A DNA stretch of 37,007 nt from a bacterium. Lineage in GTDB: Bacteria > Omnitrophota > Gorgyraeia > Zapsychrales > Fredricksoniimonadaceae. This document shows, one piece after another, positions 25,147 to 29,849 of the stretch. The translations under genes and the position numbers were made by a program. The notes beneath the pieces are model-generated. The model had not been told where the DNA came from. It made no database searches and worked only from the letters and a program-made list of their open reading frames with translations. Within the stretch, counting starts at the first letter, position 1, and the number at the start of each line of letters is the position of its first letter. Location: positions 9,712-46,718 of the forward strand of contig JAJXTI010000003.1 of NCBI GenBank assembly GCA_021783915.1, written 5' to 3'.

Positions 25147-25174
25147 TTGACAAATTAAAAATTTGTGGTAAATT
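25147..25174 (+). promoter_or_regulatory. Sigma70-type promoter of the hsp20-clpB-hsp20 operon
   Basis: TTGACA (25147-25152), 16-bp spacer, TAAATT (25169-25174), overlapping the first CIRCE element. Confidence 0.6.
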
Positions 25175-25199
25175 ATCACTCAGATTTAAAGAGTGCTAA
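25173..25199. promoter_or_regulatory. CIRCE operator 1 (HrcA binding site)
   Basis: TTATCACTC-N9-GAGTGCTAA; one mismatch to consensus TTAGCACTC-N9-GAGTGCTAA. Confidence 0.9.
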
Positions 25200-25236
25200 T
25201 AGTTTTCACCCGGGAGTTTATTCTTGGGTATCTTGG

Positions 25237-25270
25237 TGAGGATATGATTAGGAGAAATCCTCATTTTTTT
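25237..25270 (+). terminator. Terminator-like or attenuator hairpin in the hsp20 leader
   Basis: TGAGGAT (25237-25243) / ATCCTCA (25257-25263) followed by TTTTTTT (25264-25270). Confidence 0.5.
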
Positions 25271-25280
25271 GGCATGGGTA

Positions 25281-25307
25281 TTAGCACTCTAGTTATTAGA
25301 GTGATAA
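25281..25307. promoter_or_regulatory. CIRCE operator 2 (HrcA binding site)
   Basis: TTAGCACTC-N9-GAGTGATAA; one mismatch, in the arm opposite to CIRCE 1. Confidence 0.9.
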
Positions 25308-25347
25308 TTATTTCTTAATAAACAACACTTTAAACAGGAGGTGGGTT

Positions 25348-25794
25348 ATGTCATTGATTCAATATCGTAAACACCAAATAGACCCATTACGGGAAATCTT
25401 GAATGATGAATTCTTTAGTCCATTTTTCCCTTTAGTGGGGAGATCGCTGGTAAGAAATGCTTCACAATGGTTCCCGGCTTTGGATGTCTTAGAAGAGAAA
25501 GAAAGCTATACCATTAAGGCTGATTTGCCAGGTATTAAAAAAGAGGATGTACGTGTTTCCTTTGAAAATGGCCTTTTGACCATTGAAGGTGAACGTAAAG
25601 AGGAAACGGAACAGAAGGATAAAAATTATCACCGCCTGGAGCGGACCTATGGCCATTTCGTACGTTCTTTTAATTTAGGTACAGGCGTAGATGCTAGTAA
25701 AATTCAGGCCAACTATAAAGATGGGGTCTTAGAGATAGTCGTAGCTAAATCCGAAAAGGCCAAACCCAAAGCCATTGATATTCAGGTTGGATAA
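25348..25794 (+). CDS. Small heat shock protein Hsp20 (alpha-crystallin domain)
   Basis: ALDVLEEKESYTIKADLPGIKKEDVRVSFENGLLTIEGERKEE...YGHFVRSFNLGTGVDASKIQANYKDGVLEIVVAK; SD AGGAGG upstream. Confidence 0.95.
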   Translation: MSLIQYRKHQIDPLREILNDEFFSPFFPLVGRSLVRNASQWFPALDVLEEKESYTIKADLPGIKKEDVRVSFENGLLTIEGERKEETEQKDKNYHRLERTYGHFVRSFNLGTGVDASKIQANYKDGVLEIVVAKSEKAKPKAIDIQVG

Positions 25795-25852: not shown

Positions 25853-27976
25853 ATGCAATCGCAAGAGCAGAACATACAAAAACCTTTAGAAAAATTCGGT
25901 AAAGATTTAACAGATTTGGCCAGTAAAGGTAAGCTTGACCCCGTTATCGGGCGCGACGAAGAAATTCGCCGTGTTATTCAAGTGCTATCGCGCCGGACCA
26001 AGAATAATCCTGTTTTAATCGGCGAGCCGGGGGTTGGCAAAACGGCGATAGTCGAAGGTCTGGCGCAGCGGATTTTTTTAGGAGACGTTCCTGAAGGCCT
26101 TAAACACAAAAGGGTCGTTGTTTTGGACATGGGAGCTTTGGTGGCCGGAGCAAAATTCAGGGGAGAATTTGAGGATCGGCTTAAAAGTGTTTTAAAAGAG
26201 GTGGAGTCTAATGATGGAGCCATTATTTTATTCATTGATGAGCTACACACTATTGTCGGCGCAGGGCGGGCAGAGGGAAGTGTAGACGCCGCTAATTTAC
26301 TTAAACCCGCCCTAAGCCGTGGGATGTTGCGTTGCATTGGCGCAACCACATTGGATGAATACCGTCTGTATATTGAAAAAGATGCGGCCTTAGAAAGACG
26401 GTTTCAGCAGGTCATGGTCAATGAACCGACGGTGGAAGACACCATTGCCATTTTACGTGGCCTTAAGGAAAAATATGAGGTGCATCACGGCGTACGTATT
26501 CAAGACTCCGCAATTATTGCCGCGGCGGTAATGAGCCAGAGGTATATTACAGATCGTTTCTTACCGGACAAGGCCATTGACTTAATTGATGAGGCGGCTT
26601 CCCGATTGCGTATTGAAATCGATAGCATGCCTCAAGAGTTGGATCACAATGAACGAGAAATCCGCCGGCTTGAAATAGAACGACAGGCCCTTAAGAAGGA
26701 ACAGGATGTCTCCTCTAAAGAGCGTGTCAAGACAATCGAAGAAGAATTAGCAATTTTAAAGGAAGAAAATAAAAAGATGCGCATACGCTGGCAAAATGAA
26801 AAGGTGGTTATTGACCGGATCCGTACCATTAAAGCGGATATTGAAGAACGTAAAATTGAAGAGGCCAAGGCTGAGAAAGTGGGGGATTTGGATAAAGTCG
26901 CTCAAATCCGCTACGGTGTTCTGGTCCAGTTACAAAGGGAATTGGAAGTTAATAATAAAGAACTCTCCAAAGTACAAAAAAATGGAGCCATGCTTAAAGA
27001 GGAGATTGATGACCAGGACATTGCGGAAATTATTTCTAAGTGGACAAAAATTCCCTTGTCAAAATTGATGCAAGCAGAGACAGAAAAATTAGTATATATG
27101 GAAGAAGCCTTAAAGAAAAAGGTCGTTGGTCAGGACAAAGCCATTGAAGCGATTGCTTCTTGCATTCGCCGCTCTCGCACAGGTTTAAGCGACCCGCAGA
27201 GGCCCTTGGGTTCATTTATTTTTGTGGGGCCCACAGGGGTCGGTAAAACCGAGTTGGCCAAGGCCTTGGCTTGGTTTTTATTTGATGATGAAAGTGCCAT
27301 AGTACGTATTGATATGAGCGAATATATGGAAAAACACAGCACCTCGCGTCTTATTGGTGCCCCACCGGGTTATGTCGGTTATGATGAAGGAGGCCAGTTG
27401 ACCGAGGTGGTACGCCGTAAACCTTATGCGGTGGTACTTTTTGATGAAATAGAAAAAGCCCATCCGGATGTTTTTAACGTACTTTTACAACTGCTTGACG
27501 ACGGACACCTGACCGATTCCCAAGGCAGGGTCATTAATTTTAAGAATACAATTGTGATTATGACTTCCAATATTGGGACGGAACAGATAACGGATTTGAC
27601 GGATCAGCAGAAAATAGAAGACCATGTACAAAGGGCTTTGCGGGTGCATTTCCGCCCAGAATTCTTAAACCGTGTGGATGAGATAATCGTCTTTTCACGT
27701 TTGACAGAAGCCCAGATAAAGAAAATCGTTGATATTCAGTTAGGCATCTTGGCAAGCCGTTTAAATCAGAAAGAAATAACATTGGAGGTTTCCGAGCAGG
27801 CCAAACAATTCTTGGCCAGGCAGGGTTACGATCCTGTTTATGGGGCCAGGCCTTTAAAAAGGACGATTCAAACTTTGGTTCAAGACCCTATTGCCTTTCG
27901 CCTTTTGCAAGGAGAGATCAAAGAAGGCCAGAAGATTAAGGTGGATGCTCAAGGTGAGGGTCTAGTTATTGTATAA
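25853..27976 (+). CDS. clpB: ClpB-type AAA+ disaggregase lacking the N-terminal Clp-N domain
   Basis: NBD1 [18 protein letters not shown], ClpB-length coiled-coil M domain, NBD2 [26 protein letters not shown]; starts directly at NBD1 with only a short N-terminal leader. Confidence 0.9.
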
Positions 27977-29048: not shown

Positions 29049-29075
29049 TTAGCAGTCGTATATTTAGAGTGCTAA
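29049..29075. promoter_or_regulatory. CIRCE operator 3
   Basis: TTAGCAGTC-GTATATTTA-GAGTGCTAA; one mismatch to consensus. Confidence 0.9.
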
Positions 29076-29123: not shown

Positions 29124-29849
29124 ATGGTTAAACAAACTGATTTACAACAACGTAAAGATTTAATTTTAGCCATAGTGGTCAATCAATACATCAAGACCAT
29201 TACTCCGATAGGTTCGCATTTTATCACTGAGGAATTTAGGCTGGATGTGTCACCGGCCACTGTGCGCAATATTTTAGCGGAACTAGAAGAGGAAGGTTAT
29301 TTGAGTCATCCGCATACCTCTGCTGGGCGCGTCCCTACCCAGCGTGGGTATCGCTATTATGTCGATCATCTGATGAATGAAATCCAGCTTTTAGAAGAAG
29401 AGAAGCGCCGCATTCAATTGGAATATAAAAGGCACGTGGATCAGTTAGAGATTTTGATGGAGAAAACCACTGAGGTGATCTCTGATTTGACTCATTATAC
29501 GAGTATTATTTCAGTGGATGGCTGGGACAGTAAAATTATTCTCAAAGGGACCAGCCATGTGGTCGGCTATCCTGAAAATACGAATATATTAAAAATACAG
29601 GCAATCTTAAGAATTCTCGAGGAGAAGGAGCGTTTGTTGGCCTTAATCAACCGTGACTTGAATCATAAAATCGAAATTTATATCGGTCATGAAATGGCAT
29701 TGAAAGAAATAGAAGGTTGCTCCTTGGCCGTGTCTAGTTTTGAAAAGGGTAGCTTAACCGGACGCATTGCGGTTTTGGGGCCAACACGCATGAATTACAA
29801 CCGTGTGGTCTCTGCCCTTGAGTATATCTCGGATTTATTTAGCCATTGA
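29124..29849 (+). CDS. hrcA: Heat-inducible transcription repressor HrcA, short form
   Basis: N-terminal winged helix (VSPATVRNILAELEEEGYLSHPHTSAGRVPTQRGYRYYVDHLM) and C-terminal GRIAVLGPTRMNYNRVVSALEYIS; only 241 aa. Confidence 0.95.
   Translation: MVKQTDLQQRKDLILAIVVNQYIKTITPIGSHFITEEFRLDVSPATVRNILAELEEEGYLSHPHTSAGRVPTQRGYRYYVDHLMNEIQLLEEEKRRIQLEYKRHVDQLEILMEKTTEVISDLTHYTSIISVDGWDSKIILKGTSHVVGYPENTNILKIQAILRILEEKERLLALINRDLNHKIEIYIGHEMALKEIEGCSLAVSSFEKGSLTGRIAVLGPTRMNYNRVVSALEYISDLFSH

Follow-up and report, generated by a model that had tools for sequence, protein, structure and literature searches.

A double-CIRCE hsp20 leader with a terminator-type hairpin in Omnitrophota: a candidate two-stage HrcA switch

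The accepted view of HrcA is that it represses transcription at the initiation step. The hsp20 leader described here shares with the HrcA/CIRCE systems of the B. subtilis type, at class I heat-shock promoters, the TTAGCACTC-N9-GAGTGCTAA inverted repeat, an hrcA gene in the same gene cluster, and a CIRCE (CIRCE1) placed over the -10/start site. Unlike the B. subtilis type, it has a second CIRCE (CIRCE2) in the leader behind a putative terminator, and the only CIRCE of its relatives lies inside an operon, about 300 nt from the promoter. Double CIRCE sites are already known in other bacteria, as a preliminary description of this DNA had pointed out: L. lactis dnaK also has two CIRCEs upstream of one heat-shock gene. 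In the accessible part of that source (PMC1676014), both overlap the promoter, and a terminator or T-run between them is not described. The arrangement with a terminator between the CIRCEs looks new.

Three other types of control may be compared. At the LacI, CcpA, CodY, and PurR roadblocks, the operator likewise lies downstream of the promoter, and the bound repressor stops the polymerase, which is then removed (PMC4132739, PMC10310618). The roadblocks documented for LacI, CcpA, and CodY are cleared largely by Mfd; whereas here an A/T tract is fixed where the hybrid of a stalled polymerase would be. Intrinsic terminators and attenuators of 5' leaders likewise place a G/C-containing hairpin and a directly adjoining T-run ahead of the coding sequence. 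Unlike in leader attenuators, no antiterminator was seen here, and control would be exerted by a repressor bound to the DNA a short way downstream. In Campylobacter, an HspR-type protein and HrcA likewise act on the same heat-shock genes, and both bind the promoter (PMC7464140); in Omnitrophota, the operon contains the HspR-like gene, with CIRCE at the gene junction. Comparison with relatives suggests that HrcA might block both the start of transcription and an already elongating polymerase, which would be an unusual mode. By the same comparison, the leader is a derived form, consisting of a new, predicted HrcA-controlled promoter (CIRCE1), a putative terminator, and an old T-run/CIRCE2 stop.

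The double-CIRCE leader of hsp20

The window is the whole stretch of DNA analysed (37,007 nt; genome G000, contig C121), and all the features given below are on the + strand. It comes from an uncultured Candidatus Omnitrophota bacterium, whose closest named relatives are Omnitrophota MAGs. The hsp20 gene (25348..25794) encodes a small heat-shock protein of 148 aa (Pfam HSP20, E=1.4e-28). Its leader contains, in order, promoter P1, CIRCE1, a leader hairpin, a terminator-type hairpin, T7, 10 nt, CIRCE2, the ribosome-binding site, and the start codon. P1 (25147..25174; TTGACA-16-TAAATT with extended TG) has its -35 TTGACA at 25147-25152, a 16-nt spacer, and a TG-extended -10 TAAATT at 25169-25174, which overlaps CIRCE1 so that the final T of the -10 is position 2 of CIRCE1. 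CIRCE1 (25173..25199) is the predicted HrcA operator across the -10/start site; CIRCE2 (25281..25307) is the second one, in the 5' leader, and the proposed roadblock site. Both are N9-spaced inverted repeats with one mismatch each, and 0 are expected in shuffles. The ribosome-binding site of hsp20 is AGGAGG (25336..25341). The preliminary description is thus borne out as to the coordinates and single mismatches of both elements, the position of CIRCE1 on the -10/start site, and that of CIRCE2 ahead of the ribosome-binding site. It had also singled out the mirrored placement of the mismatches (TTATCACTC...GAGTGCTAA / TTAGCACTC...GAGTGATAA). The mirroring is present in the window, but it is not conserved and is absent even in the genus sister G001. 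It was also considered whether CIRCE2 might itself provide a promoter (in the window, TTAGCA-16-GATAAT); this was rejected, as the other double-CIRCE leaders, read by eye, lack it.

The terminator-type hairpin (GUGAGGAU...AUCCUCAU, 25236..25264) has the arms TGAGGAT/ATCCTCA (25237-25243/25257-25263), with 8 bp including one flanking pair, a 13-nt loop, and a dG of about -8 kcal/mol. It is followed by T7 (25264..25270), which ends 10 nt ahead of CIRCE2. A generic terminator scan of the window did not list the hairpin at 25236-25264, because of its loop length. An additional leader hairpin (ACCCGGGA/UCUUGGGU, 25208..25229) is present; the relatives, read by eye, are without it.

In four relatives of the same family (G001, G007, G012, and G020), the leader elements follow each other as in the window: P1, again in the same register, then CIRCE1, a hairpin that abuts the T-run, and CIRCE2. 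P1 takes the form TTGACA-16/17-TAWATT in constant register with CIRCE1 in all five leaders. The hairpins were evaluated by keeping the T-run fixed, shuffling the upstream stretch 1000 times, and combining the p-values by Fisher's method. The p-value was 0.09 for the window and 0.018, 0.003, 0.002, and 0.002 for G001, G007, G012, and G020, respectively; the combined value was 3.6e-7. The window hairpin alone is weak evidence, and it is convincing only together with the relatives. Taken together, a hairpin directly abuts the T-run in 5/5 leaders, as expected of an intrinsic terminator, and the terminator-like hairpin noticed earlier between the CIRCEs is kept, with a T-run, throughout this group. 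The hairpins are strong in G007, G012, and G020 (-16 to -20 kcal/mol), where the CIRCE1 sequence itself supplies part of the 5' arm. The hairpin sequences have diverged among the five leaders; G012 has 12 uninterrupted pairs, and G020 has 14 pairs in two blocks. In the single-CIRCE leaders having a T-run (n=60), the median hairpin energy was 0 kcal/mol, i.e. no hairpin.

A similar double-CIRCE leader was found in a second family (G109, G162, and G338), with the -35 inside CIRCE1. The hairpin of G109 is significant (p=0.001); G162 and G338 have only a short stem a few bases ahead of the T-run, not directly abutting it. In the hsp20 tree, the two double-CIRCE groups fall into separate, well supported clades; judging from this tree, the double-CIRCE form therefore arose at least twice.

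The two further ideas of the preliminary description fared less well. One was that HrcA, bound to both CIRCEs, loops the DNA between them or binds cooperatively. Two full operators are present, and the spacing of the paired CIRCEs at groESL in this family is constant per clade (61-63 or 79-82 bp). The spacing of CIRCE1 and CIRCE2 at hsp20 is 108, 76, 64, 56, and 59 bp (G000, G001, G007, G012, and G020), i.e. 10.29, 7.24, 6.10, 5.33, and 5.62 turns, which is neither constant nor kept in helical phase. Looping is thus highly improbable. The other idea was an RNA switch acting on termination or translation, either through long-range pairing between the CIRCE arms or through a structure that responds to temperature. 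The arms do pair perfectly in the window (9/9), and the leader folds better than its shuffles (z=-2.86). Any two CIRCEs have a common consensus, which accounts for this pairing, and it decays in the relatives without compensation (0, 1, 2, 3, and 2 mismatches in G000, G001, G007, G012, and G020). Moreover, the arms can pair only once the terminator has been passed, and an Rfam search gave no match. When the leader was folded across temperatures, the unpaired probability of the ribosome-binding site stayed at 0.66-0.67 from 10 to 65 C, which speaks against the suggested thermosensor. An RNA switch of either kind has a probability close to negligible.

The T-run and CIRCE at operon junctions

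The hsp20 leaders were read across the Omnitrophota phylum. Most CIRCE-bearing hsp20 genes lie in an operon behind a MerR-family gene of about 95 aa. The best model for this gene is HspR (NF047375, E=1e-18, below its cut-off), and it also matches Pfam MerR_1; it is called hspR-like here. In 59/59 leaders with an hspR-like gene upstream, the distance from the end of an A/T tract (7 or more bases, the last three being TTT) to CIRCE is exactly 9 nt, vs 1/6 leaders without the gene (p=7e-7, the related genomes not being independent). The base after the T-run is a purine in all but one of the operon-form leaders. A genome-wide pattern scan that was not tied to hsp20 also gave a sharp peak of the T-run-to-CIRCE distance at 9 nt. 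Among the matches listed (at least 150), and leaving aside sites where a TATAA/TATA box immediately precedes CIRCE, at least 45 had a distance of 9 nt, at least 6 of 8, and at least 2 of 10. In one relative (G003, L059), the same T-run-9-CIRCE junction is also located upstream of a clpB gene; the unit is therefore not tied to hsp20. Another idea, that the T-run forms one side of an extended, symmetric HrcA operator, was rejected, as no matching A-run lies downstream of CIRCE.

The T7 of the window is the counterpart of this phylum-wide T-run, and CIRCE2 is that of the one CIRCE which the relatives have inside their operon. The gap between the T-run and CIRCE2 is 9-12 nt in the family doubles, looser than in the operon form. 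Orthologues keeping only one CIRCE had been named beforehand as a sign against the double arrangement. Such orthologues exist among the deeper relatives, where the single CIRCE is intra-operonic with its T-run at the fixed 9-nt distance. The five family leaders all have two CIRCEs with an internal terminator-like hairpin, and the second family has a similar form that evolved independently. No CIRCE upstream of hsp20 was found in the genome-scan matches outside the phylum, so there is no outgroup for the arrangement.

The hspR-like gene has a near-consensus promoter ahead of it, scoring at least 10/12 in 35/54 cases, usually as TTGACA-17-TATATT some 54 nt ahead of the start codon. No CIRCE was found at this promoter (the closest has 7 mismatches). 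The operon-form CIRCE lies 304-364 nt downstream of the -10 of this promoter, an operator downstream of the transcribing promoter as at known roadblocks; in the window, CIRCE2 is 108 bp downstream of CIRCE1/P1. Since the promoter is without CIRCE and CIRCE lies so far downstream, HrcA at the intra-operonic CIRCE can hardly act on initiation, and these positions argue for an effect after initiation. On either side of the -35 of the promoter of the hspR-like gene lie conserved inverted repeats, GTTAGATnATCTAAC or TTTCGAAAATCGAAA (L007-L044, L159-L248); the first type reads GTTAGAT-ATCTAAC. These repeats do not match the HAIR consensus and could be the operator of the HspR-like protein itself.

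An alternative is that the T-run is an element of a second promoter P2 that has a T-rich region, with the -10 at the T-run or over the start of CIRCE, and that HrcA represses it classically. The A/T tract is indeed TAAAAT-like at -20 to -15, and a purine nearly always comes next after the T-run. Three merR-less relatives have TTGACA-17-TAAAAT in the T-run register, with the -10 box in place of the T-run, and the T-rich spacers of groES promoters most often end 8-9 nt before CIRCE. Against P2, the -35 is not enriched in that register (mean 2.58 of 6 vs 2.34-3.0 in shifted controls), promoters scoring at least 10 around the operon-form CIRCE number 0/54 with a mean below shuffles, and the hairpin arm replaces the -10-like bases in the five family doubles. 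An ordinary sigma-70 promoter at the T-run was rejected for want of a -35 signal, and P2 as a whole is unlikely. The T-run may nevertheless descend from a promoter element, as the T-rich spacers of groES and the -10 of the merR-less leaders occupy the same place. In the operon form it is kept without a -35 or -10, which favours a role in elongation.

A proposed stop of elongating polymerase

With the EcoRI E111Q protein roadblock, the active site of the polymerase stalls 12-13 nt upstream of the EcoRI site (PMC3913778). Transferred to the present leaders, this distance falls inside the T-run. No paper on an HrcA roadblock was found in the literature searched. The geometry suggests that a roadblock set on a weak RNA-DNA hybrid would be the likeliest reading of the T-run/CIRCE unit. 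It is tentatively proposed that Omnitrophota have a repressor-dependent terminator, in which a polymerase halted by HrcA on the A/T tract exactly 9 nt before CIRCE has an all-A/U hybrid and releases its RNA, and no hairpin is needed; this proposal is plausible, at somewhat less than even probability. If true, it would provide separate HrcA control of hsp20 inside the operon, and the window leader would be a derivative that is reinforced by a hairpin and has an HrcA promoter of its own in front. A rigidly spaced, phylum-wide T-run/CIRCE unit in the operon would show HrcA acting on elongation. It would also be a natural compact switchable terminator, in which a repressor on the DNA acts jointly with the sequence beneath the stalled polymerase.

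From the geometry of the sites, we infer how HrcA binding, termination, a roadblock, and heat might act together in the window leader. At the first stage, HrcA on CIRCE1 would cover the -10/start site of P1, and initiation would be blocked. At the second stage, an escaped polymerase would meet the intrinsic terminator (hairpin and T-run) within about 90 nt, with the T-run 9-12 nt before CIRCE2. HrcA on CIRCE2 would form a roadblock that holds the polymerase while its RNA-DNA hybrid is weak A/U, and the transcript would be released. Upon heat shock, HrcA would leave both sites, and the polymerase would read through to hsp20. The second stage might be inherited from the operon form, in which hsp20 is the second gene behind the hspR-like gene, as in most Omnitrophota with CIRCE at hsp20, and HrcA would control hsp20 alone by stopping elongation at the gene junction. 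In the window clade, the upstream gene and its promoter would have been replaced by P1/CIRCE1, and a hairpin would have been added to the T-run. The probability of this two-stage switch with an inherited second stage is judged to be about even. A point against it is the moderate stability of the window hairpin (about -8 kcal/mol, with a loop of 13 nt).

A simpler explanation is a double operator with a constitutive leader terminator, where CIRCE1 represses P1, the terminator lowers basal read-through, and CIRCE2 is left over without any role in elongation. Two CIRCEs at one promoter have the L. lactis dnaK precedent (PMC1676014), and the evidence for the terminator is good by itself. This explanation does not account for the A/T tract exactly 9 nt from CIRCE in all 59 intra-operonic leaders, with no promoter seen nearby. 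A left-over CIRCE2 would also not be expected to persist in two independent double-CIRCE lineages. The double operator is thus rather doubtful.

CIRCE at other genes, and the gene cluster of the window

Hairpin, T-run, and CIRCE also occur together at other heat-shock genes. In one group of the family, 10-11 nt separate the upstream groES CIRCE from the T-run of a preceding terminator-like hairpin, and the spacer sequence has diverged. The distance is 11 nt in G008, G009, G018, G023, G026, and G027, and 10 in G024; it is 5 in G000 and G001. A clpB gene of G009 has hairpin-T6-12 nt-CIRCE. These cases come from related genomes with hairpins read by eye, and they are supporting evidence only. The groESL genes of the family (L004 1501-1590; L254-L278) often have two CIRCEs, one upstream of the promoter and one on it; outside the family, there is mostly one. 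In groES promoters across the phylum (L279-L346), a strong A-run immediately precedes TTGACA, and the spacer leading to the TATAAT, which overlaps CIRCE, is T-rich.

The genes after hsp20 in the window are a clpB-type gene, a second hsp20-like gene, hrcA, and one that resembles grpE. The hrcA gene (29124..29849) encodes a short form of 241 aa (Pfam HrcA, E=1.8e-25; TIGR00331, 229 bits, above cut-off). A CIRCE scan located a third CIRCE of the window (29049..29075) at the hrcA promoter TTGACA-TATACT. The product of hrcA should be the repressor that reads all three window CIRCEs. Beyond the window, G000 has two further CIRCEs, both upstream of groES. The window HrcA lacks about 100 central residues of the 338-position model; the other complete HrcA copies seen in the phylum (L003, L046, L071, L073, L079, and L376) are similarly short. 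The ClpB-type protein (25853-27976; L053) matches its model from position 151, and its N-terminal domain is absent. One clpB of the relative G009 has the same model start.
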